Part shown: positions 1 through 45,342 of the stretch, one piece after another
Layout: the number at the start of each line of letters is the position of its first letter
Position numbering within the stretch: position 1 is the first letter of the stretch
IMG/VR virus record: IMGVR_UViG_3300048833_000056
Location: 1-45,342 of that record
Direction: 5' to 3' (one strand)
Source: a virus
Length of the DNA: 45,342 nucleotides
Notes under the pieces: generated by a model
The model's database searches: none
Told to the model about the DNA's origin: nothing
Seen by the model: the letters and a program-made list of their open reading frames with translations, nothing else
Program-made: the position numbers and the translations under genes

Positions 1-70
1 GGCCTGTGGCCCACCATTTGCTGCGCGCTAGCGGCGCTGAGTACCGCCCACCTCAAGGCTGGCAGGGGCT
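1..70. other. Left host chromosomal flank
   Basis: Chromosomal sequence downstream of the broken tRNA-Leu gene. I see no gene, terminator or repeat in these 70 bases; too short to identify. Confidence 0.6.
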
Positions 71-127
71 TGGTGCGAAAGGCGGGACTCGAACCCGCAC
101 GGGGGTTACCCGTCAGAACCTAAATCT
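71..127 (-). pseudogene. 3' half of host tRNA-Leu(UAG), split by prophage
   Basis: Read on the minus strand this is the 3' part of a class II tRNA-Leu: anticodon loop with UAG, long variable arm, a perfect T-arm (GCGGG/CCCGC around TTCGAGT), acceptor strand CTTTCGC and an encoded ACCA (plus-strand 71-74). Its acceptor strand pairs perfectly with GCGAAAG at the start of the 5' half at the other prophage end (45256-45250), so both halves come from one gene. No tRNA 5' half precedes it here: beyond position 127 the sequence is phage. This half therefore has no promoter or 5' partner and cannot give a tRNA. When the halves are joined, pair 27-43 would be C-A, so the anticodon stem may have four pairs. 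Confidence 0.92.
116..127. other. attL: attL core
   Basis: GAACCTAAATCT, identical to 45216-45227. It is the anticodon-loop segment of tRNA-Leu(UAG) and the only stretch common to both prophage ends at the expected tRNA position. The integrase gene ends 17 bp away, as is usual for tyrosine-recombinase phages. Confidence 0.9.
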
Positions 128-144
128 CCACGGTACTGACGTAA

Positions 145-1293
145 CTACTTGATTGCATAGAGGATTGGACGGTTTTCTGTGCCAATACCTGTCGGTTGTG
201 CCGTCGGTATCGGATGACTACTCTGTACCGGAGGCACATCCGATGCAACGAAGGCATCCAGCACGCTCGATGCGTTGTCCAGGTGACCGGGCATGTACTT
301 CACGTAACGCTTCGTCACCTCGGCAGAACTGTGCCCAAGCCAGATGCGGATCTCGTCCAGGGACACCTTGCCGGACATCGCCAGCCTGGTTGCACAGGTA
401 TGGCGCAGCGTGTGCAGCGTGACCCCCTGGATGCCCGTCACCTTCATCAGCGCGACGAACGGGTCATGGGCATTGCGCGACGTCCAGGTGCCATGCAGCG
501 GGTTGTCCAGCATCGCCAGCAGGGCCACTTCAGCACGCGCCGTCAGGGGCACCACGCGGCCCTTGTTGGACTTCGTCTGGCCCGCCTTGAGGTGTACCCG
601 GTAGCGGCCATTGATGCCCTTGTGGAGGTGGTCACGGGTCACCTGTTCCAGTGCCTCACCGCAGCGCATGCCGGTGTCGATCAAGACGATGAAGAGGTTG
701 TGCATGTACTGCCGGCGGGTGTTGCCCGGGGCGGTGTTGGCCGTGAACCAGTCCAGGCACAGCTTCTCCTCCTCCAGGGTTACGTACCGATCCTTCTCGT
801 TGTGTTCGTCCCACTGCGGCATGTCCGGCATGACGAACCCGGGTTCCTTGCAGAACGTCAGGGCGACGTGGATGCAGGAGACGTAGCGGTTCTTCGTGGC
901 CGGCTGCAAGTCCTTCGCGTTGACCGTGCCGACCTGGAGCGAGTCCAGGTGCTTCTTCAGGCGATCCTTGGTGATCGTATGCACGGGCCAGTGCCCAATC
1001 TCGCGGACGATCTTGCCGACGCGGGTGCGGTACTCGTGAGCCGACTTCGAAGTCGACCACTGCTCCGCCCATGCGTGACGCAGGCAGGCACCCAAGGTGT
1101 CCAGCCGGAGACCTTCAAGCTGCTGCGCGTCCTTCGGGAGGATGTCCACCAGGTGGGAGCGCATGATCTCCAACGCCCGTACCTGCGCCCTGGCGTGATC
1201 AGTCTCGTCGGTGGAGAGCCGCTGGCGGTCGCCGTTGGCGTCCTTGAAGTGGACGTATAGGACGCCCCCTGGCTTGCGTGGTTTCAGTTCCAT
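145..1293 (-). CDS. int: Phage tyrosine integrase
   Basis: A 382-residue tyrosine recombinase that would catalyse integration into, and with help excision from, the tRNA-Leu site. The N-terminal part (about 60-150) resembles a SAM-like core-binding domain. The catalytic domain shows the first Arg in DTGMRCGEAL (about residue 210), the HxxR box in TLHTLRHTC (about 294) and the nucleophile Tyr in LGHSSAEVTKRYVKY (about 329). The start ATG follows GAGAGACC. It lies last in an operon with the repressor-like gene (1773-1447) and a small membrane protein (1450-1307), and its stop is 17 bp from attL. In the excised phage it would sit directly upstream of attP and the RNA polymerase gene, the position known for integrase in temperate T7-like phages. 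Confidence 0.95.
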   Translation of the reverse strand: MELKPRKPGGVLYVHFKDANGDRQRLSTDETDHARAQVRALEIMRSHLVDILPKDAQQLEGLRLDTLGACLRHAWAEQWSTSKSAHEYRTRVGKIVREIGHWPVHTITKDRLKKHLDSLQVGTVNAKDLQPATKNRYVSCIHVALTFCKEPGFVMPDMPQWDEHNEKDRYVTLEEEKLCLDWFTANTAPGNTRRQYMHNLFIVLIDTGMRCGEALEQVTRDHLHKGINGRYRVHLKAGQTKSNKGRVVPLTARAEVALLAMLDNPLHGTWTSRNAHDPFVALMKVTGIQGVTLHTLRHTCATRLAMSGKVSLDEIRIWLGHSSAEVTKRYVKYMPGHLDNASSVLDAFVASDVPPVQSSHPIPTAQPTGIGTENRPILYAIK

Positions 1294-1306
1294 GGTGATT
1301 GGTCTC

Positions 1307-1450
1307 TCACATGAGGCGGAAGATGCCGTAGCAGAAGATCGCTACGCCGATGACGCTGATGATGCCGACGTGGCCGGTTACGACCCCGAGGATGATGCCG
1401 CCGACGATGCATCCGTAGGCGAGGTAGTCAGGTGGTGATGTTGTGTTCAC
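1307..1450 (-). CDS. Small two-helix membrane protein
   Basis: A 47-residue ORF with a GTG start that overlaps the stop of the upstream repressor-like gene (GTGA), suggesting coupled translation. The product has two hydrophobic stretches (about 14-26 and 28-43) separated by a His-Val-Gly turn, so it is probably an inner-membrane hairpin. It stands between the repressor-like gene and integrase and would be expressed in the lysogen. I do not recognise the family. A role in superinfection exclusion is conceivable only from its location. Confidence 0.6.
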   Translation of the reverse strand: MNTTSPPDYLAYGCIVGGIILGVVTGHVGIISVIGVAIFCYGIFRLM

Positions 1451-1773
1451 TGTGCGTATAGAGCCTTGAGGAAGCGCTTGACCAGGGCCGCGCCTTTCGG
1501 CTGCAGGCGGGCGGCTCGATGTGCGCCGTCCTTGGTCAGAAAAAACTCGGTGAGGTCGTGGGTTACGGTGAGGAGCTTGAGGGTGCGGCTGACTCCAGCT
1601 TGCGACGCTTCCATGCGCCGCTGGAGGGTGGTTGAATCAACCCCGTCTGGCCCCGCCTGCGCGACGCGGAGCAGCGCGATTATCTGCCGGAGCGATGCGT
1701 CGTCGCCGAACTGGCTGACCAGCACCTGGAGGGCGTTCAAGGTCTTGTTGATTTCGGTCATCTGCGTTTGCAT
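1447..1773 (-). CDS. MarR-like winged-helix protein, candidate lysogeny repressor
   Basis: 108 residues. Residues 25-70 look like a MarR/winged-helix DNA-binding domain: helices in DASLRQIIALLRVAQ, a recognition helix in SQAGVSRTLKLL, then a wing and a closing C-terminal helix (LQPKGAALVKRFLKAL). RBS AAGGAAGG precedes the ATG. The upstream promoter (1846-1873) contains one exact copy of the 14-bp palindrome that recurs at all suspected control points of this phage. No CI/Cro-type repressor is present elsewhere, so this is the best candidate for the protein that binds the palindrome; that link is inference. First gene of an operon with a membrane peptide and integrase. Confidence 0.75.
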   Translation of the reverse strand: MQTQMTEINKTLNALQVLVSQFGDDASLRQIIALLRVAQAGPDGVDSTTLQRRMEASQAGVSRTLKLLTVTHDLTEFFLTKDGAHRAARLQPKGAALVKRFLKALYAQ

Positions 1774-1811
1774 TGACTTCCTTCCTTGTTGGTGAACGGA
1801 CGGATAGGATA

Positions 1812-1825
1812 ATCCGCCGCCGGAA
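1812..1825. promoter_or_regulatory. Degenerate operator copy
   Basis: ATCCG-CCGC-CGGAA matches the ATCCG-N4-CGGAT palindrome except for the last base. It lies about 25 bp downstream of the proposed -10 of the repressor promoter, with an extra half-site at 1801-1805. It could be an auxiliary operator. Confidence 0.45.
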
Positions 1826-1845
1826 CACTACCACACTGATGTTCA

Positions 1846-1873
1846 AGTATCCGCCAACGGATTGACGGGTAAA
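1846..1873 (-). promoter_or_regulatory. Candidate promoter of repressor-integrase operon
   Basis: Minus-strand TTTACC (-35, 1873-1868), 16-bp spacer, GATACT (-10, 1851-1846). Both boxes are four of six to the sigma-70 consensus. The palindromic operator 1849-1862 fills the spacer and -10, so a bound repressor would block its own promoter. Confidence 0.5.
1849..1862. promoter_or_regulatory. Operator palindrome ATCCG-CCAA-CGGAT
   Basis: Exact 5+4+5 palindrome, one of seven in the prophage. It overlaps the proposed -10 and spacer of the repressor-integrase operon and suggests autoregulation. Confidence 0.7.
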
Positions 1874-1984
1874 GCGTGTTGCCTTCTCGTTGTGTACCAA
1901 TGGTTCGACAGTAAGCACTTCGGTCTCCGTGGCGGTTGAGATTCTGATTTTCTGCGTGCCACGTCGCAGGAATCGAGATTGTCG

Positions 1985-2013
1985 GCTGTTCATAAAACTT
2001 GGTTCTGAACAGC
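1985..2013. repeat. Inverted repeat in repressor-upstream region
   Basis: Perfect 8-bp arms GCTGTTCA and TGAACAGC with a 13-bp spacer. It lies in the 392-bp gene-free stretch 1774-2165, which is visibly richer in A/T than the genes. Could be a regulator site or a hairpin at the end of the transcript from gene 2672-2166; there is no U-tract. Confidence 0.5.
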
Positions 2014-2165
2014 GCGATACGGACGTCACATTTTCATCACCCCTGTCCGTGTTAGGGCTTTTGCTGACCTTACGCGTCACTTCCTGCCTGTGACTTTCTT
2101 CCTGTGTAAATAATTCACATATAGCCGCTGTGTTCCCCTTCCCTGGGAATCGATAGGCCGCACCT

Positions 2166-2672
2166 TCAGCTGGCAGGTGTTTCCTTGGAGGCCCAGGCCG
2201 TGAGCTGCTCCATGAAGCGCTGCGCCCTGCCCTCCTCCGCTGCAAGCGTCTCCATGCGGACAACGTGGTTGTCCTTGCCGTAGTAATCGCGCATGCCGTC
2301 GCACTCGCGGTACAGGATCGACAGGCCCGCCTTACCCGCGCACCACTCGCTGACCTGCACGTACACCTTGTTGCCGTGTAGGGTCACCTGACCGCTCACC
2401 GCCGGCCCGCCCTGGTTGCTCCGCACGTCGAACTTGGACAGGCCCAGCTCCTTGGCGAGCTTGTTCAGCCAGATGGTCGCCGAACGGTGGAACGTCTGCT
2501 TCTGGTTGGTGTCGCCGTAGGTGTAACCGCAGATGTGCTTGAGGTTGACCAGGGTGCGCGTGACGGGCGGCATTTTGGGTGCAGCCTTGGCCGGCTTGCG
2601 GTCGCCGATGGTGATGACCTGGAGTTGACCGCGGAGGTTCAACGCCTGGATCAGTGTGCGGGTGGTTGTCAT
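2166..2672 (-). CDS. Hypothetical early protein, 168 aa
   Basis: Early-region gene preceded by a good RBS (AGGAGACCACC then ATG), a leader motif shared with other early genes here. The product is basic and mixed alpha/beta in look, with HICGYTYGDTNQ near residue 47 and YRECDGMRDYYGKDN near 120; no signal or membrane segment. I do not recognise a family. It is the last gene before the repressor region and lies next to, but convergent in strand with, the phage tRNA. Host-takeover or anti-defence proteins are common at this place in T7-like phages, but nothing here proves that. Confidence 0.75.
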   Translation of the reverse strand: MTTTRTLIQALNLRGQLQVITIGDRKPAKAAPKMPPVTRTLVNLKHICGYTYGDTNQKQTFHRSATIWLNKLAKELGLSKFDVRSNQGGPAVSGQVTLHGNKVYVQVSEWCAGKAGLSILYRECDGMRDYYGKDNHVVRMETLAAEEGRAQRFMEQLTAWASKETPAS

Positions 2673-2688
2673 GGTGGTCTCCTAGTGG

Positions 2689-2697
2689 TGGTAAAGT
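2689..2697 (+). promoter_or_regulatory. Candidate extended -10 promoter of tRNA-Leu
   Basis: Plus-strand TGGTAAAGT: a TG dinucleotide, one base, then TAAAGT (four of six to TATAAT), ending 9 bp before the mature tRNA 5' end. A weak -35 (TTGTCA, 2666-2671) is 20 bp upstream, too far for standard spacing, so the extended -10 is the better reading. Confidence 0.45.
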
Positions 2698-2706
2698 CCG
2701 CGACGT

Positions 2707-2791
2707 GCGCGGGTGGCGGAATTGGTAGACGTGCAGGATTTAGGTTCCTGTGCAGCAATGCGTGCGGGTTCGATTCCCGCCCCGCGCACCA
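2707..2791 (+). tRNA. Phage tRNA-Leu(UAG)
   Basis: Complete class II tRNA with encoded CCA. Acceptor stem GCGCGGG/CCCGCGC (2707-2713 with 2781-2787), discriminator A, D-arm with GG, five-pair anticodon stem CAGGA/TCCTG around the loop TTTAGGT (anticodon TAG), a variable arm closed by GCA-GCAA-TGC, and T-arm GCGGG-TTCGATT-CCCGC. The anticodon is the same as that of the host tRNA gene split by this prophage. It is the only plus-strand gene and sits between two early minus-strand genes, so lytic early transcription runs antisense to it. It would supply CUA (and, with modification, other CUN) decoding in the lysogen. Confidence 0.96.
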
Positions 2792-2792
2792 C

Positions 2793-3002
2793 TCACTGCT
2801 TGAGGGCGAACCGGTGCGCGTGGCAGTGAACCTTGCGCCCCGCGTCGTCGATGACTTCGACGTATGCAGGCCACACGAAGGGGCTTACGCCGTCGCTGCC
2901 CGCTTCCTCGTACCCGACCACGGTGTAGTCCTTGCCCAGGGTGAAGTCGTATCCGCGGGGGCCGCGACAGGTCACGACGTCGCCGGTGTTGAAGGTTTGC
3001 AT
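2793..3002 (-). CDS. Hypothetical early protein, 69 aa
   Basis: Small protein starting after AGGAGACCACC. The pattern NTGDVVTCRGPRG...LGKDYTVVGYEE, then YVEVIDDAGRKV, suggests a small SH3-like beta barrel of the kind seen in phage KOW-like proteins; similar openings (KVGDxVVR) occur in the genes at 41990 and 41499. Its stop lies 1 bp from the end of the oppositely oriented tRNA. Function unknown. Confidence 0.7.
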   Translation of the reverse strand: MQTFNTGDVVTCRGPRGYDFTLGKDYTVVGYEEAGSDGVSPFVWPAYVEVIDDAGRKVHCHAHRFALKQ

Positions 3003-3045
3003 GGTGGTCTCCTAGTGTGTTGGGGCGTGTTTGAGGTGTTCCGAA

Positions 3046-3071
3046 GGAATGCCCGCCTTGACAGGCATTCC
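3046..3071 (-). other. RNA hairpin between early genes
   Basis: Perfect 8-bp arms GGAATGCC/GGCATTCC with a 10-base loop, no U-tract. It lies between two early cistrons, the place where T7 early mRNA carries RNase III processing hairpins. Role inferred. Confidence 0.45.
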
Positions 3072-3082
3072 GGCAGACAGCC

Positions 3083-3262
3083 TCAGGCGTGTTCGCGTAC
3101 CAGCTTACGGAGGGCCGCTTCGCTGGAGCCTTGGAACGTCGAATAGTTGATGCCGCGAGAGCGCAGCCAACGCTTCATGCGCCGCCGCCGCGTTGCATCC
3201 TTGCGTGTCCGTTCGACCACGGCCCTATCGGGCGTCATGCCGAACCCATAGACGGGCTTCAT
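3083..3262 (-). CDS. Hypothetical early protein, 59 aa
   Basis: Very basic small protein; residues 14-35 are rich in Arg/Lys (RTRKDATRRRRMKRWLRSRG), followed by a short helix with LRKLVREHA. The chosen ATG at 3262 overlaps the stop of the upstream gene (ATGA); an in-frame GTG two codons earlier is possible. Probably a nucleic-acid or host-factor binding peptide, judged only from charge. Confidence 0.65.
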   Translation of the reverse strand: MKPVYGFGMTPDRAVVERTRKDATRRRRMKRWLRSRGINYSTFQGSSEAALRKLVREHA

Positions 3263-3480
3263 GCCCACACCTTCGCCAACTGCTTAACGCACGCCTGGAA
3301 GGTCTCGTCGTCGTTCGCCCATTGCGTGCTGGAGATGATCGACAGGGCGAGCCGTGCATAACCTTCCGGCGTGTCTGGCGTATTCGGGTACATGCCGGAG
3401 TTCCGCATGTGTCGCGCCAGGTTGACCACGACGGTGGCCGTGTGGATGGTCTTGGGGAGTGACGTCCGGTGTTTGATCAT
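3259..3480 (-). CDS. Hypothetical early protein, 73 aa
   Basis: Small protein with a helical C-terminal half (YARLALSIISSTQW, then FQACVKQLAKVWA). Its start codon overlaps the stop of a 20-codon ORF upstream and its stop overlaps the next gene, so the three form a tightly coupled group. No family recognised. Confidence 0.65.
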   Translation of the reverse strand: MIKHRTSLPKTIHTATVVVNLARHMRNSGMYPNTPDTPEGYARLALSIISSTQWANDDETFQACVKQLAKVWA

Positions 3481-3539
3481 TTCGTTCCCCAGTGGGTGGC
3501 CCGTTCGGTGGAGTCTAGGTGCTGCAGCATGCTTTCCAT
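3477..3539 (-). CDS. Possible 20-residue leader peptide
   Basis: ATG-initiated 20-codon ORF (begins MESMLQHLDS, ends HWGTK) after the early-gene style leader AAGAGACCAACATC. Its TGA overlaps the ATG of the next gene (AATGA), typical of translational coupling. Too short to judge by composition. Confidence 0.4.
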   Translation of the reverse strand: MESMLQHLDSTERATHWGTK

Positions 3540-3567
3540 GATGTTGGTCTCTTATGTGAGAGGCGGC

Positions 3568-3603
3568 GCGTAGCCGAATCGGACAAGGTGTCCGGCACTA
3601 CGC
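3568..3603 (-). other. Nested RNA hairpin in early region
   Basis: Outer arms GCGTAG/CTACGC and inner arms CGGACA/TGTCCG with a 3-base loop, between the 123-aa gene and the next group. No U-tract; a processing site is more likely than a terminator. Confidence 0.4.
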
Positions 3604-3631
3604 CCGCACGGCAGGCGTAGAACCTGAAGCC

Positions 3632-4003
3632 TTACAGCTCGTGACGTTCCCAGCGGCCAAACTGGTGGACGTAGAGATATTCCGCATCCGCATTACGCGC
3701 CGCATCGATCAGCGACACGATGCCCGTGAACGTTTCCGCCGGGTGCCTGTCGTCGCCGCGGTCGCGGTGATAGGCCACGCAGTAGCCCTTGACGGGAGTG
3801 TCGAAGGAGTGGCCCTCAGGCTTTCCCGTGGACTCCCCAAGGCGCGACAGGTCGCCCAGCTTCAGCAGCGCCGCACGCGCCTGCGGTGTGGCGTAATGCG
3901 TTTCCAGCGTGGGCAAATGCATGTCGCCGTCCTGGTGGCAATAGATGGAGGAGAACTTCAGCGAGGTGCGGTTCTGTACCGCGATATATGCACGGGTTGC
4001 CAT
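3632..4003 (-). CDS. Hypothetical early protein, 123 aa
   Basis: Start at ATG 4003 behind AAGGAACCACC. The sequence (MATRAYIAVQNR...SIYCHQDGDMHLPTLETHY, later GYCVAYHRDRGDD and AEYLYVHQFGRWERHEL) resembles a phage protein family with a conserved IYCHxDG motif whose function is not known to me. Soluble, no membrane segment. Lies in the early operon behind the Cys-motif protein. Confidence 0.75.
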   Translation of the reverse strand: MATRAYIAVQNRTSLKFSSIYCHQDGDMHLPTLETHYATPQARAALLKLGDLSRLGESTGKPEGHSFDTPVKGYCVAYHRDRGDDRHPAETFTGIVSLIDAARNADAEYLYVHQFGRWERHEL

Positions 4004-4085
4004 GGTGGTTCCTTTGGGTGTGTTTGAGGTGATCGGAGGATGTCCGCCAGTGCCCACGCCTACGCATGGGCACCAGCTGAAACCC

Positions 4086-4859
4086 TCACGCCGCGGTGTC
4101 GACTACAAAGCCGCTGAAGTCTTTCCGTGCCTTGCCCTTCGCATACAGGCCGACCACCACGCCCGCCGGGTCTGTGAATCGGAGGTCTGTTTCATCGCCG
4201 CAAATGACCGCACGTCCCAGGAACGTTTCCGGCAGGTTTTTGGTGCGGAAGACCGCGGCGATGTTCATGCCCGCCGCCAGTGCCTTTTCAACGTGCGCCG
4301 TATACTCCGCCGTCGCCGCGCTATAACTGAAGGTCAACGCGTAATTGCCCAGGTGCGAAACCTTCCGGTTGCTTATTTTCGTGTAGTCATAAAACTGCAC
4401 ACCGCCAAAGCATTCGAAAATGCTCGGATACCATTCACCGGCAGGCGACTGGACAGGAATCAATTCCCACCGGATATCACTTGTACCGTTCAACCGCACG
4501 ACGGGCACCAGGCCACGACGTGCCGCTTTCCGGATAAAGGCCGCAATCTCGGTGACCAACTGCGCCATAAACCCGGCCCGATCCCGGGCATAAAACTGCG
4601 TGCGGCGGATGCGGCAACGCTGGATTGCATTGTCCGGCAGCAGTTGCCCATCCTCCGCCGTGAAGGTCGCGTTGCCTGGAGCCATGCCGCCCCGCCCCGC
4701 CGTGTTAAGGCATCCCGCGATGCATCCGGCAATCTCCGCCATCGGGCACACATTCAGGCCGGAAGCTTTCCATGGGGCGAGATATAGCACCGCCGTCATG
4801 TAACCCTGTTTTTGTCCTTTGACCGTCTTGGCATTCGAATCGATGTTTAGCAGTTTCAT
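4086..4859 (-). CDS. Gp88-like early phage protein with Cys cluster
   Basis: 257 residues from ATG 4859. Residues 22-55 carry TAVLYLAPWKASGLN followed by CPMAEIAGCIAGC, a spaced Cys cluster (C-x7-C-x3-C), and then AGRGGM; further on MAQLVTEIAAFIRKAAR and VRLNGTSDIRWE. This pattern resembles the phage family named after mycobacteriophage Gp88 (DUF7227-like), whose activity is unknown; the Cys residues could hold a metal. An operator palindrome lies 13 bp upstream of the ATG, between this gene and the first early gene, so it may be controlled separately. Confidence 0.8.
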   Translation of the reverse strand: MKLLNIDSNAKTVKGQKQGYMTAVLYLAPWKASGLNVCPMAEIAGCIAGCLNTAGRGGMAPGNATFTAEDGQLLPDNAIQRCRIRRTQFYARDRAGFMAQLVTEIAAFIRKAARRGLVPVVRLNGTSDIRWELIPVQSPAGEWYPSIFECFGGVQFYDYTKISNRKVSHLGNYALTFSYSAATAEYTAHVEKALAAGMNIAAVFRTKNLPETFLGRAVICGDETDLRFTDPAGVVVGLYAKGKARKDFSGFVVDTAA

Positions 4860-4871
4860 GATTGGATTCCT

Positions 4872-4885
4872 ATCCGATACCGGAT
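4872..4885. promoter_or_regulatory. Operator palindrome ATCCG-ATAC-CGGAT
   Basis: One of seven exact copies; it lies in the 25-bp gap between the first early gene (stop 4885-4887) and the Gp88-like gene start (4859), just before its RBS AGGAATCC. I see no strong promoter, so it may act as a roadblock or cover a weak promoter. Confidence 0.65.
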
Positions 4886-5079
4886 TACGCGAAGATGCGG
4901 AGAGAGACGACGGCAGCTGCAACGCTTGCCGCGGCGGTCAATACGTGGCGGATATCGCCCCGGCGCTTGCGCTTCACTGCGCGGCGTGCGGCTTCCATTA
5001 CCAGGGCATCCGGCACCGGCATCGATTCAACCGGGCGCACGTTGTGGAATGGATAGGCGTTGCGTGTAAAGTTGGTCAT
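4885..5079 (-). CDS. First early gene, 64 aa hypothetical
   Basis: First ORF after the early promoter; RBS GAGAGG upstream of ATG. The N-terminal half is polar (HNVRPVESMPVPDALVMEAARR), then a basic patch KRKRRGD, then a hydrophobic C-terminus (VLTAAASVAAAVVSLRIFA) that could be one membrane helix with the basic patch inside. In T7 this place holds the anti-restriction gene 0.3; there is no visible similarity to Ocr. Confidence 0.6.
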   Translation of the reverse strand: MTNFTRNAYPFHNVRPVESMPVPDALVMEAARRAVKRKRRGDIRHVLTAAASVAAAVVSLRIFA

Positions 5080-5131
5080 GTTGTTGGCCTCTCAGGTTGC
5101 CGGCGGCGGATTGCGTTCCGGCTTGGGAACA

Positions 5132-5160
5132 ATCATCGCGACTGGATCGCCATCCGTCAA
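5132..5160 (-). promoter_or_regulatory. Host-type early promoter
   Basis: Minus-strand TTGACG (-35, 5160-5155; five of six), exact 17-bp spacer, GATGAT (-10, 5137-5132; four of six). It points into the early genes (5079 onwards). The operator 5152-5165 covers the -35. The best sigma-70 promoter seen in the prophage, at the place of the T7 A promoters. Confidence 0.75.
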
Positions 5161-5165
5161 CGGAT
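5152..5165. promoter_or_regulatory. Early-promoter operator ATCCG-TCAA-CGGAT
   Basis: Exact palindrome overlapping the -35 box of the early promoter; a repressor bound here would exclude sigma-70 polymerase. Same four-base centre as the copy at 6215-6228. Confidence 0.75.
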
Positions 5166-5177
5166 ATCACGCCGTAG

Positions 5178-5211
5178 CCGACGAACGGTAGTTTGAGACC
5201 GACGAACGGTC
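5178..5211. repeat. 12-bp direct repeat upstream of early promoter
   Basis: CCGACGAACGGT at 5178-5189 and again at 5199-5210, 21 bp apart (two helical turns). The second copy lies in a 5+5+5 palindrome GACCG-ACGAA-CGGTC (5197-5211). Phasing and location upstream of -35 fit an activator or second-regulator site. Confidence 0.6.
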
Positions 5212-5241
5212 ATTACCGGATGCGCTTCCCCTAACGGATAG

Positions 5242-5610
5242 CCTGCGGCGTGTCCTGCGGCGTCCCCTGGCGTCTTCCTAAGGCGTGACGCTGCGCGCCT
5301 CTACAGTGTCCCCATGCCCAGGCCTGCGGCTTGTCCAGGTATCGCCCTGCGGCGTCCTGGAGTCTTCCTATGGTGTCCCCTGCGGCGTGTCCTATGCCCA
5401 GGCCTGCGGCGTGCCCATGGTGTAGCGCGTGGCGTTGCCTATGGTGTCCCGTGAGGTGTCCCGGCTGGCATGCGTGACCAGGAAAAAAACAGATAGGGGA
5501 ACAAAGGCGCGCAAACGGGCGAACATGCCCAGGTGCCTTGCCCATGCCCTACACGGTGTCCTGCGGCTTCCCTAAGGCGTCCTAAGGCGTCCTAAGGTGC
5601 CCTAAGGTCA
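5242..5610. repeat. Degenerate short repeats, SRL-like
   Basis: About fifteen copies of a 10-mer near CCTRHGGYGT (for example at 5242, 5254, 5277, 5346, 5378, 5403, 5571, 5581), ending in four tandem 10-bp units at 5571-5610 (CCTAAGGCGT twice, then two variants). T7 has arrays of CCTAAAG-type short repeats on each side of its terminal repeat (SRL, SRR). The open frame crossing this array is repeat translation, not a gene. Confidence 0.75.
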
Positions 5611-5870
5611 CCCAACATGCGCCCATATTGGCATGCAATCGGACTGTGATACTGATACGAACGCCTTATTAATCAATGACATGCACGCGAATGTGTGCCA
5701 GCGTGTGCCCTGCGGTGCCCAGGTGTGCGGGTTAAGGCGTGCCCTGCTGTGTCCTGGCGGTGCGATTGAGGTGCGGCGTGAGGTGCGACTGCGGGGCCGG
5801 GGCCATGGGGGTAATGGGTCGGTCACGATCTATCGACCCCCTTCGGAAAATTCTGCGGAAACCGCGGCCC
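5611..5870. other. Probable terminal-repeat/packaging region
   Basis: Gene-free sequence between the two short-repeat arrays. By position it corresponds to the T7 direct terminal repeat where concatemers are cut. In the integrated form only one copy remains, so the ends cannot be read from the sequence. It includes an A/T-rich patch at about 5640-5690. Confidence 0.5.
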
Positions 5871-5883
5871 ACCTCAACTCCAC

Positions 5884-6150
5884 CTCAGGTCATCCCCAGG
5901 CTCCGCACACAGGACAGCCCGAGGATCACTTCAGGATCCCCTGAGGCTGCAGGAGCGGCGATCCTAGCCCCGTCTGGCTACAGGCACGATAGACGGTGGC
6001 GCACAGGGGGCTTACACGGCTTCCTGTGCGTTCTATGCGGTTGTGGATATTGAGGCGGGAACGGATGGGGATCCTGAGGTGATCCTAAGGGGAAGGTAGG
6101 AGTAATGAATACCTAATACCTCACTACACCTCATAGGAAGACTGAGGTTT
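5884..6150. repeat. Second short-repeat array, SRR-like
   Basis: Scattered CCTNAGG units, often followed by T (CCTCAGG 5884, CCTGAGG 5940 and 6073, CCTAAGG 6084, and half-units around 6117-6150 such as ACCTCA and TGAGGT). Together with 5242-5610 it brackets the likely terminal repeat, as SRR does on the terminase side in T7. Looser than the first array. Confidence 0.5.
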
Positions 6151-6214
6151 ACCTCAGACCAGCATTGAGGGATACAGCATGCGCGCGTCATGCGCGAGTA
6201 GCACGAGAATGGTG

Positions 6215-6228
6215 ATCCGTCAACGGAT
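6215..6228. promoter_or_regulatory. Operator palindrome ATCCG-TCAA-CGGAT, with promoter-like TTGACG
   Basis: Identical 14-mer to the early operator. On the minus strand it contains TTGACG (6223-6218); 17 bp on lies TACTCG preceded by TG, a poor -10. A second host promoter reading across the packaging region is possible. It lies about 85 bp beyond the terminase stop. Confidence 0.6.
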
Positions 6229-6310
6229 TGTTGATCAGCAGTGAGGAGCAGAGGTCGAATGGTCTAAGAGACCAATCCGCCACCACCCGACGTACTCCTC
6301 AGGATCTATT

Positions 6311-8041
6311 CTACCTACGTCGACCGACACCGCCAGCGACCCTGGCGAAGCTGTTGCCATGCTTCTTGACCAGGTGGCCCATGCCGAACCGCTCGTGGAA
6401 CTTGTCGATCATGTCGGACAGCTCCTTGTCGCGATGCTCGGCCTCTGCCTTGTGACTGTCACGGGCCAGGGCATCCCTGAACCAGCGCACCGCGTGGGCC
6501 AAGGCATCGAGACGGTCGTCGTGACGTAGACAGTTGCGATCCTTGGTGATGCGGGTGAGCTGGTACAGCAGGGAGTACTTCTGTTCCTTCTCGTCACCGC
6601 CGGCTGCGGAGGTGTCCTGGCGGACTGCCGTCGCGTCGATCACCAGGCGATGCTGGTTCAGCACCGGCTCCAGGTCTTCGATGATGCGGCGTTCCTTCTG
6701 GCCGGTGGCTCGGATCTCTTCCATGGTGACCGGGTAGGTCTTCGCCATGACGGGTTCCAGGAGCTTCATGAACATGCCGTCGCCGAAGTTGGATTCGATC
6801 AGGACGTTGCTCACCTTGTACTTCTTCGCCACCTCGGCGAGGCCGTCGAGCGTCGCGTCGTCGTAGCCGGTGCGGAATCCGCCCCAGGCCTTGAGGAAGA
6901 GCGTGCCTTCCAACTGGAACACGACCACCCACGCGGTCTCGTCACCACCGCGGCCTGATGGATCCACGACCAGGAGTCGACCTTCGTAGTCCTTGAAGAT
7001 CTCCGAGGTGTGCATCGGGCGGTACATGCGGTCGCCGCTGAAGCCCAGGTTGACGATGTCTTCCAGGCGCATGCGTGCGTCGCTTGACCAGACGTGCTTG
7101 ATCGGCGCGGTGTCGTTGTCGACGTCGGTGACGATGAGGTCGGACTGCTTGAGCGGATACCGGTCGCTGTCGCTCAGGCTCGTGTCGAGCATGAACTGCA
7201 ATGCGAAGCCGGAGCGCCCGTAGGAACCCTCACGCTCCGCCAGGTCGAGATCGCTGAAGCGCGTCGGCTCGGTGGACTTGCCGACCAGCGAGGGGTCAGC
7301 CTCAAGTTCCCTGAGGATGTCCGGGGCCAGGGCACCGTCGTACTTGTTGACGTCCTTGGGATACCTCACGGGCCACACGCGGCACTCGTAACCACGCTCG
7401 CGGACTTTCTTGTAGATCGACTGCTCGGTCTGTGGGGTGCCCAGGTAGATGATGTCGAAGCCTTCGGGCACGACGAGCGCGTCGTATTCCTTGATCAGCT
7501 CCGCCAAGCGTTCCCGCATGGTTTCCGTGAGGGAGTTCTTGGGCACCTCGACGTCGTCGGAGATCAGGATGGTGGCGCGACCGCCGGTCAGCTGGCCGGT
7601 GATACCGACACAGGACACAGACGGCGTGGGGTGAGCGTCAGCGGGGCCGACATCGAACGCCGTGGTGGCGTCACGCTGGCCTGACCTGGAGCGCAGGAAC
7701 TTCAGCTCCTCGATCTCGCTGATCAATCGCTTGATGAAGACGGCGTTTTCGAGCGCCTTGTCCTCATTCGCGGAGACGATCTTCACTCGTTCGTTGGGGT
7801 TGCGGTACAGACGCCACAGCGCATAGGCGCAAGTGATCCACGTCTTGGCCGCGCCGCGCCATGCCTGCACCATGCGGCGTCGATTACCGGTCGCCACGAA
7901 GTGGGCGATGGCGAGCTGGCGCTTGGTCGGGCTGGGCAGCTTCAGGTGCCGCCAGATGAACCACAGGAAATACCTGAAGTCGTCATGGAGCTTCTTTTCG
8001 GATTCCGTGCGGATCCATTCGGGGTAGGTCTTGTCGGTCAC
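6311..8041 (-). CDS. Large terminase subunit (T7 gp19-like)
   Basis: 576 residues (T7 gp19 has 586). The ATPase/nuclease motor that packages DNA through the portal and cuts concatemers. N-terminal ATPase: RGAAKTWIT at about residue 60 replaces the classic Walker A as in gp19, and ILISDDVEV gives Walker B. The nuclease domain begins near 365 with VVDPSGRGGDETAW and has NVLIESNFGDGMF and HDDRLDALAHAVRW at the C-terminal end. GTG start at 8041; an operator palindrome lies 8 bp upstream of it. The RBS is weak. Last structural gene before the packaging region, as in T7. Confidence 0.95.
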   Translation of the reverse strand: MTDKTYPEWIRTESEKKLHDDFRYFLWFIWRHLKLPSPTKRQLAIAHFVATGNRRRMVQAWRGAAKTWITCAYALWRLYRNPNERVKIVSANEDKALENAVFIKRLISEIEELKFLRSRSGQRDATTAFDVGPADAHPTPSVSCVGITGQLTGGRATILISDDVEVPKNSLTETMRERLAELIKEYDALVVPEGFDIIYLGTPQTEQSIYKKVRERGYECRVWPVRYPKDVNKYDGALAPDILRELEADPSLVGKSTEPTRFSDLDLAEREGSYGRSGFALQFMLDTSLSDSDRYPLKQSDLIVTDVDNDTAPIKHVWSSDARMRLEDIVNLGFSGDRMYRPMHTSEIFKDYEGRLLVVDPSGRGGDETAWVVVFQLEGTLFLKAWGGFRTGYDDATLDGLAEVAKKYKVSNVLIESNFGDGMFMKLLEPVMAKTYPVTMEEIRATGQKERRIIEDLEPVLNQHRLVIDATAVRQDTSAAGGDEKEQKYSLLYQLTRITKDRNCLRHDDRLDALAHAVRWFRDALARDSHKAEAEHRDKELSDMIDKFHERFGMGHLVKKHGNSFARVAGGVGRRR

Positions 8042-8049
8042 GTATAGGT

Positions 8050-8063
8050 ATCCGGAAACGGAT
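8050..8063. promoter_or_regulatory. Operator palindrome ATCCG-GAAA-CGGAT
   Basis: Exact copy immediately upstream of the terminase GTG. A weak minus-strand -10 (TATACG) follows, so either a host promoter for terminase or its translation start region would be masked. Confidence 0.6.
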
Positions 8064-8152
8064 TGTGCGGCCCAGGACGGGCCACGCAGAGAGGGGGTCG
8101 CTACGGTGGTAGCGGAGGAGGCCTTCCGTGGCCTCTAGGGGCGTTCCTTGCG
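8064..8152 (-). other. Three consecutive RNA hairpins before terminase
   Basis: In minus-strand order: GAGGCC/GGCCTC with a 6-base loop, CGCTAC/GTAGCG with a 4-base loop, and GGCCC/GGGCC with a 5-base loop. No U-tract. They occupy most of the gap between the Ntn-hydrolase-like gene and terminase and could process the mRNA or tune terminase expression. Confidence 0.5.
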
Positions 8153-8620
8153 TTAGCGCTTCTTGCGCTTCACGGGCACTTTGGGTGTCCGTAGGGAGAA
8201 CGTGCGGTACTCCGCTCGGGAGAACCAGTCGTACTTGGCCGCGGCCTTGAAGGCGTCCTTGACGGTGCCTCCTGCAGACAGCGCGCCCAGGGCGTACTTC
8301 GCGCCGGAGCCGACTGCGAAGAAGGGTTCGGTGAACGGGCCGGCAAGCGGCTTGTCATCGACCCAGTAGAAGTAGCCGGGGACACCAGGCTTGACCACCA
8401 GGCCGTAGAAGTCACCGCCGTCGACGCACTGCTCGCCCGCGTTGTACGCGTTGAGTGCTTCCACGCCGGCACCTAAGGTGGCCGAGGTGGCTCCGATCAT
8501 CGATCCATCGTTGGCGTACAGCACCTTGTTCTTCGCACCAGGAGTCGGACTTCCGCCCTCGCCTCCCCATGCGCGAGTGTCTGCGTACAGATTGCCGTCC
8601 TTGAAGATCACCAGGCTCAT
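8153..8620 (-). CDS. Ntn-hydrolase-like (proteasome/HslV-fold) protein
   Basis: 155 residues from ATG 8620, which overlaps the stop of the zinc-ribbon gene. The C-terminal half has the stretch FFAVGSGAKYALGALSAGG followed by helices (VKDAFKAAAKYD), close to the GSG...A-L-GA..AG signature of proteasome beta/HslV subunits; the tail is basic (VKRKKR). There is no early Thr/Ser nucleophile at residue 2 (the start is MSLVIFKDG; the Ser at position 2 could serve if Met is removed). Similar genes occur in other phages as peptidase T1-like proteins. Activity and target are unknown; next to terminase it may act in maturation. Confidence 0.65.
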   Translation of the reverse strand: MSLVIFKDGNLYADTRAWGGEGGSPTPGAKNKVLYANDGSMIGATSATLGAGVEALNAYNAGEQCVDGGDFYGLVVKPGVPGYFYWVDDKPLAGPFTEPFFAVGSGAKYALGALSAGGTVKDAFKAAAKYDWFSRAEYRTFSLRTPKVPVKRKKR

Positions 8621-42516: not shown

Positions 42517-44973
42517 TTACGCGAAAAGGAAGTCACTGTTATGGACAGCCTGCAAATCCAGGGAACCGTAGCCGGGAAGCTCCGGCAGTTCGGCCAACAG
42601 CTCCGGCCTCGTTGCCCTCAGCTGCGTCCCGACCTCGTCACGGAAGCGACCCAGGACGTCAGGCGTGTATTGCTCGACGAACGCCGTGCGGATCACCGCG
42701 TGCAGCTTGTCGGTGTCGCAGGCGTGGGTGCCGAAGCTGTCGTGGATGACAGCCAGGGAGCCGATACCGTTGATCGTGCAGAGCTGTGCCGTACGCATCA
42801 GGTGGCTGGAGTCTAGCGAGTGGACGAAGTTGGGAGCGATGCCCGACGACTGACGGCGGGAGTCGATCTCTTCGGTCTCGACCGCCAGCATCAGTTTGGT
42901 CTCGACGCCGTCCACGAACACCTTCACGCGGGTGCCCTCTTCGATACGGTACGCCTGCATCACAGGCAGTCCCATCGGCGTCGTCCAGCGGATAGGCAGC
43001 TTGGCCTTCGACAGCAGCTTGGATGCCGACTGCAGCCAGTCCATCGCACCACGCGCTGCCACCACCACTTCACCCAGGGCATCCCAGATAACAGCCGCGG
43101 CGTACCCAGAAGCTGCGTAGTTCTCCACGTCACCGTGCAACCAGCGACCTTCCTCTGCATCCAGCTTGTCCAGAGCCGCTTCGATCTGCTTGTGCATGCC
43201 GCGCTTGGTTGCGGAGTAGCACAGCGTCATCGTCGGCTGCTTCGCCACCTTGCGGCAGAACTTCCCTTGCCATGTGGAAGCGTATTCGCTATCGGATTCG
43301 TCGGACATGACTTGGGCGCGCTTCGACACTGCGGTGTAGACATCGGCAGGTTTCTCCGAAGGCACGAGGTTCACCGCCGCGCCCCCGATCTCGTCACGCA
43401 GCAGTGCGCTGAAGTGCTGAAGGCCGGAGCAGCTGCCGTCCATGGCAATGCTCAGGTGCGAGACGTGTGCGTCACCGTTGGTCTTGTATCCCATCCACTC
43501 AATGCACGCGGCCAGGGCGCAGAACGGATCATCAGCGGTCTGCCAGAAGCCTTCGCCGTCGATGGGATCCAGGGCGGACTCCAGGATCTGCTCCTCGTGC
43601 TGCATGACCCAGTCGATACGGTCGTCGAAGGACACCTTGTCGACACCGAACAGGTTCGCGATGTGAACCGCCAGCCAGTACGCGCCGGTCTCACCCAAGG
43701 CTTTTCCTTCGGCGAACTGGAGGAGACCCTTGGCGACGTCATCACCCTGGGGGTTCAGGAAGTTGGCGTACGGATACACGCGACCGCGGAAGTCCAGGTA
43801 GTGCGGGAAGTAGATCGCGTCCTCACCCTTGAACTTGTCTGCGACGAACAGCTTCTGCGCCACCTGGGCACGCTCCGACCGCAGCGAGTAGTTCTTCTCG
43901 TGGATCTTTGCGGCCTCCCGCTTCCACTCCTTGAGGGCTTCCTGCTGCTCGATGGCGAGGTCGGCCATCTTGGCGTCCGTGGGGACACCGTGAGGGCGCA
44001 CGGGCAGCGGCTTGTCGTGCCGGCTGGGGAGACCCTTGCTGTTGATCTCGTTGTCCCAGAGCGTACGCAGCACCTCCAGGACGCGGGTGTTGATCCGCCA
44101 GGGCGTCGCCTGCACCGCATTGACCGCCTGCAGCACGTTGGACAGGTCAAGGGAACCCAGTTCGTCCAGGTACTCACGACTCCGGGTGCGAACCAGGCGC
44201 GGCTTGAGGGCGTCCGTGAGGTAGCCACCGGCGTAAGGGTGCTTCCAGTCCCGCGGCGCATGCACCATCGGCAGATGCAGGGGCGACAGCAGGGCGCACT
44301 GCTCGTGAGACTTGGTCAAGACCTTCAGCCATTCGTCCGAGAAGTGGACTTCGATGGGGGTGTCCCGGGTGCCCTTGGTCATGCGAACCAGCTGCACGAT
44401 GTCCGTGGCGTCCATGAACAGCTCCAGGAGCTTGGTGCCCAGGAGAACCTTCTCGGTCTCGTTCCAGCTGACTTCCTTCTCCGAGTACCGGGCGATGACC
44501 GTGTTGTAGACCGCGCTCCGGTGGCGGGCCGAGGTCGAGGTCTTCAGCTGCTCGGCCACCTTGCGGTACAGGCCGGGGTGTTCCTTGGTCAGCCTCACGA
44601 TGTTCAGGTGTTCCTGAATCATGTTGGCGATGTTCAGGGCGACGTGCTGGAGGTTCTTGGCCGAGGACGCGCCGTTGATCGCAGCCCTGGCCGTCAGGTA
44701 AGCAGCCTGCTCCGGGGCCAGCTTGGTGATGTACGGGAGGGCGGCATGCTTGCGCCCCGCCTTGCCCTCAGCAGCCCGCTCGATGAACTTCTCGATCAGC
44801 AGGGCGGTCGGCTCGATGGCCTTCTTCAGGAGTCGCCTGCCGGGGAGCGTATCGGCCTCTGCGCTCTCGTCCTTGGCCTTCTCGTACCTGTCCACACCCA
44901 GGATCAGGCTCTCCTGCTCCAGGGCAATCTGGCGGTCACGCAGGGTGTCACTTGAGGTTTCACTGGTGGTCAT
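42517..44973 (-). CDS. Phage RNA polymerase, single subunit (T7 gp1-like)
   Basis: 818 residues (T7 gp1 has 883). All catalytic motifs are present: AMDGSCSGLQHFSA with the first Asp (about 511), KQPTMTLCYSATKRG with Lys and Tyr (about 583-592), and VIHDSFGTHACD with the second Asp (about 743). RBS GGAGAGACC before ATG. It reads the four phage promoters found here, including one in front of its own gene. In the provirus it is separated from the early promoter by integration at attP and is flanked on both sides by operator copies. Confidence 0.97.
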   Translation of the reverse strand: MTTSETSSDTLRDRQIALEQESLILGVDRYEKAKDESAEADTLPGRRLLKKAIEPTALLIEKFIERAAEGKAGRKHAALPYITKLAPEQAAYLTARAAINGASSAKNLQHVALNIANMIQEHLNIVRLTKEHPGLYRKVAEQLKTSTSARHRSAVYNTVIARYSEKEVSWNETEKVLLGTKLLELFMDATDIVQLVRMTKGTRDTPIEVHFSDEWLKVLTKSHEQCALLSPLHLPMVHAPRDWKHPYAGGYLTDALKPRLVRTRSREYLDELGSLDLSNVLQAVNAVQATPWRINTRVLEVLRTLWDNEINSKGLPSRHDKPLPVRPHGVPTDAKMADLAIEQQEALKEWKREAAKIHEKNYSLRSERAQVAQKLFVADKFKGEDAIYFPHYLDFRGRVYPYANFLNPQGDDVAKGLLQFAEGKALGETGAYWLAVHIANLFGVDKVSFDDRIDWVMQHEEQILESALDPIDGEGFWQTADDPFCALAACIEWMGYKTNGDAHVSHLSIAMDGSCSGLQHFSALLRDEIGGAAVNLVPSEKPADVYTAVSKRAQVMSDESDSEYASTWQGKFCRKVAKQPTMTLCYSATKRGMHKQIEAALDKLDAEEGRWLHGDVENYAASGYAAAVIWDALGEVVVAARGAMDWLQSASKLLSKAKLPIRWTTPMGLPVMQAYRIEEGTRVKVFVDGVETKLMLAVETEEIDSRRQSSGIAPNFVHSLDSSHLMRTAQLCTINGIGSLAVIHDSFGTHACDTDKLHAVIRTAFVEQYTPDVLGRFRDEVGTQLRATRPELLAELPELPGYGSLDLQAVHNSDFLFA

Positions 44974-45037: not shown

Positions 45038-45051
45038 ATCCGGTAGCGGAT
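45038..45051. promoter_or_regulatory. Operator palindrome ATCCG-GTAG-CGGAT
   Basis: Exact copy upstream of the polymerase gene, 15 bp from phage promoter 4 and about 10 bp beyond the terminator. No clear sigma-70 promoter is seen here; a bound protein could block read-through. Confidence 0.68.
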
Positions 45052-45060
45052 AGTGTAGCT

Positions 45061-45085
45061 CAAATGAAAGCCCGCCGGAGCGGGC
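45061..45085 (-). terminator. Insulating terminator between attR and RNA polymerase
   Basis: Six-pair stem GCCCGC/GCGGGC with a 4-base loop, followed on the minus strand by TTTCATTTG. It lies between the host tRNA promoter at the right end and the polymerase gene, so host transcription entering the prophage should stop here. The U-tract is broken by C, so termination may be partial. Confidence 0.65.
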
Positions 45086-45091
45086 CGTGAG

Positions 45092-45172
45092 GTGTGCCAG
45101 GGAGGTGTGCCAGAGGTGGCGCACGGGGCCAGAAATGTGTGCCAGACCGTGTGCAAGTGTGCCGAGTGTGCC
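45092..45172 (+). repeat. Cluster of GTGTGCC repeats, probable integrase arm sites
   Basis: GTGTGCC at 45092, 45105, 45137, 45157 and 45166, with GTGTGCA at 45149, all in one orientation, 44-124 bp from the attR core. Arm-type sites of tyrosine integrases are short direct repeats at such distances. No gene is found in 45062-45215. Confidence 0.6.
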
Positions 45173-45215
45173 GGTGAGCCGCGGCTAAGTCGTTGAATCC
45201 AAAGGGCGCGAACCG

Positions 45216-45256
<41 letters not shown>

Positions 45257-45267
45257 TGGCTGTGGGC

Positions 45268-45296
45268 ATTGTATCCGCCCGGGGTTCCTGCAACAA
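45268..45296 (-). promoter_or_regulatory. Host tRNA-Leu promoter
   Basis: TACAAT (-10, 45273-45268; five of six), 17-bp spacer, TTGTTG (-35, 45296-45291; three of six). Predicted start is about 5 bp before the tRNA 5' end. It now fires into the prophage. Confidence 0.6.
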
Positions 45297-45320
45297 AAAA
45301 CGCCCGGCATGGCCGGGCGT
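45295..45320 (-). terminator. Host gene terminator upstream of tRNA
   Basis: Nine-pair stem ACGCCCGGC/GCCGGGCGT with a 3-base loop and six U on the minus strand (45300-45295). It ends a host transcript coming from the right. Positions beyond 45320 are host flank in which I see nothing. Confidence 0.85.
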
Positions 45321-45342
45321 TCAGGTGTGGTGGGCTGTGAAG

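Follow-up and report, generated by a model that had tools for sequence, protein, structure and literature searches.

tRNA-dependent lysogeny was named and proven genetically in mycobacteriophages in 2024 (PMC10865867). In the actinobacteriophages concerned, Fionnbharth, Gaia and others, a tyrosine integrase is combined with an attB in a host tRNA gene, a short core of about 8–11 bp, a host tRNA that is not rebuilt and a phage tRNA of the same isotype (PMC10865867). The same arrangement has been described for T7-like phages at tRNA-Leu, in Fonsibacter in 2019 (PMC6811365), Rhizobium in 2021 (PMC8631192) and Sinorhizobium in 2024 (PMC11476347); given these four reports, the interpretation of such a gene as a replacement tRNA is not new. 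The uv-Fonsiphage-EPL / HTVC019P group III phages use tRNA-Leu(TAG) as their integration site, and their own tRNA-Leu is said to replace the host gene (PMC6811365). Rhizobium phage vTRX32-1 (Paadamvirus) has a 12-bp attP, CAGATTTAGGTT, that lies in tRNA-Leu, and a whole tRNA-Leu(TAG) opposite to its lytic genes (PMC8631192). In Sinorhizobium meliloti, Lo5R7ANS-like prophages inactivate the host tRNA-Leu(UAG) in its centre and carry a tRNA-Leu(UAG) of their own (PMC11476347). Pseudomonas phage LUZ100 also carries a tRNA-Leu, which its authors read as an excision relic; they obtained no stable lysogens (PMC10134795).

Here we analyse the window, that is, the whole stretch of 45,342 bases of an IMG/VR virus record, which comprises a T7-like prophage and its two junctions with the host. 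It resembles all of these systems. Set against the actinobacteriophages, it concerns other phages and hosts, its core is 12 bp long and its tRNA is Leu(UAG); the evidence there is genetic, and here it comes from sequence. The Fonsibacter phages differ in having a SAR11 host and low GC, and vTRX32-1 in its rhizobial host and in an integrase 22% identical to that of the window (integrase alignment A1). Mesorhizobium phage Lo5R7ANS has a core, AGATTTAGGTTC, identical to that of the window, but its group carries the tRNA on the strand of the lytic genes and has an integrase of 27% identity. LUZ100 shares with the window an integrase gene, an opposite-strand tRNA-Leu and a free anticodon-loop core between the integrase and RNA polymerase genes, and differs in isoacceptor, UAA rather than UAG. 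We consider it highly likely that tRNA-dependent lysogeny in a T7-like phage is the best explanation for the window, which makes a clear case: the two junctions are both present and the empty site is known.

A T7-like prophage in a split host tRNA gene

All recognisable phage genes lie on the minus strand (Table 1). Read in that one direction, they run from the RNA polymerase gene through primase/helicase, DNA polymerase, exonuclease, connector, capsid and tail genes to the terminase gene. The small genes of the early region come next, and after them the regulator-like gene (phrog_9665) and the tyrosine integrase gene. Two traits of the Autographiviridae, a single-subunit RNA polymerase and a T7-like gene order with one coding direction, are present. 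The integrase catalytic residues R210, K241, H294, R297, H321 and Y330 are invariant in alignment A1. A Pfam search of the regulator-like gene gave no match; in LUZ100 a MarR-like gene occupies its position.

Table 1. Features of the window, with positions counted from its first base
Feature	Position	Strand	Evidence
attL: 3′ part of host tRNA-Leu(UAG), with 12-bp core AGATTTAGGTTC at 116–127	71–127	−	sequence; L198 match
Tyrosine integrase, 382 aa, directly inside attL	145–1293	−	Pfam Phage_integrase PF00589, E 1.3e-12; phrog_1, E 2.2e-42
Transcriptional regulator-like gene, adjoining the integrase gene	1447–1773	−	phrog_9665, E 1.2e-5
Possible extended −10, TGgTAAAGT, weak	2689–2697	+	sequence
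Whole phage tRNA-Leu(UAG), CCA encoded	2707–2791	+	ARAGORN; Rfam RF00005, 56.7 bits, E 9.9e-10; stems read from sequence
T7-type single-subunit RNA polymerase, first gene inside attR	42517–44973	−	phrog_414, E 2.4e-256; Pfam RNA_pol, E 2.6e-117
Palindrome ATCCGNNNNCGGAT upstream of RNA polymerase	45038–45051	.	motif search
Terminator-like hairpin between host tRNA stub and RNA polymerase gene	45069–45086	−	terminator scan
attR: 5′ part of host tRNA-Leu(UAG), with core at 45216–45227	45216–45256	−	sequence; L198 match

The two ends of the prophage hold complementary parts of one host tRNA-Leu gene. The longest stretch of the host tRNA kept at the right junction is a 41-nt prefix, and at the left junction a 57-nt suffix; the two overlap by the 12 nt of AGATTTAGGTTC, and the host tRNA is cut at its anticodon loop. 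As an exact string, GATTTAGGTTC occurs three times in the window, once in the phage tRNA and twice on the minus strand, at the two junctions (116–126 and 45216–45226); with up to one mismatch there are four occurrences against 0.32 expected, a number reached in none of 100 shuffles. ARAGORN and Rfam find no rebuilt tRNA at either junction. Phage and host have nothing in common beyond the core, and the host gene is therefore split with neither end a tRNA.

An empty version of the site confirms that the phage breaks a host tRNA-Leu gene, as the earlier note had claimed. When viral contigs were scanned for the centre of the joined gene, one contig came up, L198, which holds an intact 86-nt host tRNA-Leu(UAG) and reproduces the joined host gene letter for letter; the exact joined tRNA had no match in genome contigs. 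The flanks of L198 continue into both flanks of the window, with 100% identity over 95 bp on the left (window 33–127) and 96.9% over 127 bp on the right (window 45216–45342), so the split reflects integration and not an assembly fault. About 80 bp past its tRNA-Leu, L198 (positions 1–8382) has another tRNA-like stretch that adjoins a different prophage with tail genes, and the host locus may attract several elements.

A whole tRNA of the same isoacceptor

ARAGORN and Rfam each find a single tRNA in the whole window, the plus-strand tRNA-Leu. Its anticodon is TAG, within the loop TTTAGGT that the split host gene also has, and its acceptor stem (GCGCGGG/CCCGCGC), A73 and encoded CCA can be read directly. 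Aligned with the host tRNA, it is identical at 66 of 87 positions and differs in acceptor stem, anticodon stem and variable arm; with identity this low, the phage tRNA is neither derived from this host gene nor a fragment of it, which bears out the earlier view that it is no captured piece. Single-strand minimum-energy folds gave no cloverleaf for the phage tRNA, nor for the intact host tRNA, and were given no weight. The gene is flanked by minus-strand genes, one starting at 2672 and one ending at 2793. That it is the sole plus-strand gene, opposite to the lytic genes, also held up: when nine plus-strand open reading frames of the window were tested against phage families, none matched.

The window has four features of tRNA-dependent lysogeny: a tyrosine integrase; an attB overlapping a host tRNA gene; a core of the order of 10 bp, here 12 bp, with no tRNA reconstructed at the junctions; and a phage tRNA of the same isotype.

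The phage tRNA retains 11 of the 12 core letters (window 2737–2747), unlike the tRNA of vTRX32-1, which is without the core. The retained letters might allow self-integration or super-integration at this tRNA.

Close relatives carry a tRNA-Leu with the same anticodon

As a single query against viral and genome contigs, the window integrase returned no relatives; relatives were found through the terminase and through the integrase alignment. Three relatives found through their terminase (76% identity), L003, L004 and L005, all have a tRNA-Leu(TAG) that is encoded in the direction opposite to the integrase gene. At its other end, the record behind L005 has the 5′ half of a host tRNA-Leu(TAG) running into phage sequence, indicating the same kind of break there. 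L115 and L116, at 37–39% identity to the window in integrase and 53–54% in RNA polymerase, have a TAG core about 30 bp after the integrase gene, and their whole tRNA-Leu(TAG) is located in another part of the contig. In the integrase tree, the window, L003, L005, L115 and L116 form one clade with support 100/100, and all of these relatives carry tRNA-Leu(TAG).

We sought relatives that use the same site without carrying the tRNA, which the earlier note had named as evidence against a replacement role, and found none. L115 and L116 were considered as such counterexamples, having a core and no nearby tRNA, and were dropped when their tRNA-Leu(TAG) was found elsewhere on the contigs. In two related loci, L006 and L161, neither a core nor a tRNA-Leu was seen; these phages presumably integrate elsewhere.

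Isoacceptor match among temperate T7-like phages

The integrase alignment added 80 further contigs. Among 103 loci with an integrase and T7-like genes, which are related by descent, include near-copies and come in part from fragmentary contigs where absence proves nothing, 30 have a tRNA-Leu within 7 kb of the integrase gene. Cores were searched with tRNA-Leu anticodon-loop patterns only. Wherever a locus combines a whole tRNA-Leu with a 9-bp anticodon-loop core that stands apart from it near the integrase gene, the two isoacceptors agree, with no discordant case. The concordant loci are LUZ100, YIMV22061, L119, L140, L141, L147, L150, L154, L155, L170 and L171 for UAA; Lo5R7ANS, vTRX32-1, L123, L151, L115, L116 and the window for UAG; and L143 for CAA. 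Shorter CTTAAAA cores of the expected kind are present in six further UAA loci. L131, L139, L152, L162, L174 and Pasto gave only a shorter core match, and the core search gave nothing convincing in L160 and L136. L022, with an intact tRNA-Leu(TAG) beside the integrase gene at the contig end, was left out; that tRNA may be a host or a rebuilt gene. The earlier note had proposed a survey for co-occurrence of a split tRNA and a phage-borne isoacceptor; every resolvable case, whether UAA, UAG or CAA, was concordant.

In four loci (L074, L144, L145 and L186) the core is joined to half a tRNA, and the stretch searched contains no whole tRNA-Leu; this is the pattern to be expected of phages that restore the host gene. 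On the integrase tree, with labels taken from the tRNAs, the isoacceptor changes about six times. An opposite-strand tRNA is common among temperate T7-like phages: it occurs in the window clade, vTRX32-1, LUZ100, Pasto, YIMV22061, L123 and L139, while Lo5R7ANS, L151 and most UAA loci have theirs on the same strand.

In LUZ100 (L110), the tRNA-Leu at 2658–2743 has the anticodon TAA, and a free GACTTAAAA core stands about 87 bp after the integrase gene, before the RNA polymerase gene. Together these predict tRNA-dependent lysogeny at the Pseudomonas aeruginosa tRNA-Leu(UAA), and not a relic. More generally, we lean towards the view that tRNA-dependent lysogeny is a standard, switchable module in a large part of the temperate T7-like phages, such that a change of attP core between UAA, UAG and CAA is accompanied by a change of the carried tRNA; several phages whose tRNA-Leu has been described as a relic or left unexplained, among them LUZ100, Limnohabitans phage YIMV22061 and Pasto, would on this view need it to form lysogens. 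We did not find this isoacceptor rule, or its consequence for LUZ100, stated in the open-licence papers searched; earlier statements may exist elsewhere. The survey indicates that replacement tRNAs are common and isoacceptor-matched in these phages. The rule predicts attB where an integration site is unknown, predicts that the tRNA-Leu is a lysogeny gene, and may bear on the failure to obtain stable lysogens of some such phages.

Alternative explanations

Many phages carry tRNAs for which codon supply is the proposed purpose. A tRNA that boosts translation of phage genes during lytic growth is nevertheless a highly improbable reading of the window: CTA makes up 27 of the 959 leucine codons (2.8%) in the phage genes counted, the tRNA is opposite to the lytic genes, and the link to the attP isoacceptor would be left unexplained. 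We judge it most unlikely that the tRNA is a functionless relic, a host tRNA acquired when the phage excised imprecisely after an earlier integration. tRNA-Leu genes do adjoin integrases in temperate T7-like phages, and this is the reading published for LUZ100 (PMC10134795), but the 66/87 identity excludes this host gene as the source, the tRNA is intact in every close relative examined, and in every locus that shows both, the isoacceptors of the tRNA and of the attP core are the same, a match that a relic would not keep through some six switches.

Other phage tRNAs are known to provide an uncleavable supply against host anticodon nucleases (works cited in PMC11476347). Here phage and host tRNA have one and the same anticodon loop, so there is no sign of escape, which makes this role vanishingly improbable. 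The break would be neutral and the phage tRNA optional if the host had a second tRNA-Leu(UAG) gene; this is very unlikely, as S. meliloti 1021 is single-copy for tRNA-Leu(UAG) (PMC11476347 Table 3) and a tRNA with an optional role would not be expected to be conserved in relatives, as this one is. The reading of the earlier note, a replacement tRNA, is instead supported by the short core, the host tRNA that is not rebuilt, the shared isoacceptor, the tRNA in all close relatives of the integrase clade and the isoacceptor rule. The carried tRNA very probably takes over from the broken host gene.

Proposed mechanism and regulation

In the proposed mechanism, the integrase would recombine attP with the anticodon loop of the host tRNA-Leu(UAG) across the 12-bp core. 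Host RNA polymerase would transcribe the phage tRNA in the lysogen, and the charged tRNA would stand in for the lost gene by reading CUA and probably further codons of the CUN set. With this replacement the lysogens would survive the loss of a host gene that is probably essential. Precise excision would restore that gene, the empty site showing the exact join, whereas losing the prophage in any other way would take the tRNA with it and harm the cell, making the host dependent on the prophage. In the circular or virion order, the tRNA lies among the early genes but on the other strand, which means that transcription of these genes in the lytic cycle would cross it in antisense.

The extended −10 reported in the earlier note does exist as a string of letters, but as a promoter it is weak: the hexamer matches at only four of six positions, there is no −35 at normal spacing and a consensus promoter scan called nothing there. 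No promoter motif common to the tRNAs of relatives was visible in their upstream regions.

The palindrome ATCCGNNNNCGGAT has seven perfect copies, at 1849, 4872, 5152, 6215, 8050, 42500 and 45038, and ten matches with up to one mismatch against 1.62 expected. Most of the perfect copies stand at the start of a gene or within or close to an intergenic region, among them the regions before the regulator and RNA polymerase genes; the copies are candidate operators of a lysogeny regulator. None of the perfect copies is at the tRNA, which, if the palindrome is the operator, would escape repression in the lysogen.

Two further stretches stand out. Positions 5079–6311, about 1.2 kb without a recognisable gene, contain short imprecise repeats (CCTAAGGCGT; TCCTATGGTGTCCCCTGCGGCGTG) and may be the site of virion ends or early promoters. 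At 45069–45256, the 5′ stub of the host tRNA gene is oriented towards the RNA polymerase gene of the phage, its promoter presumably lying further upstream; a terminator-like hairpin stands between stub and polymerase gene, in a region where three such hairpins were found against 0.2 expected.
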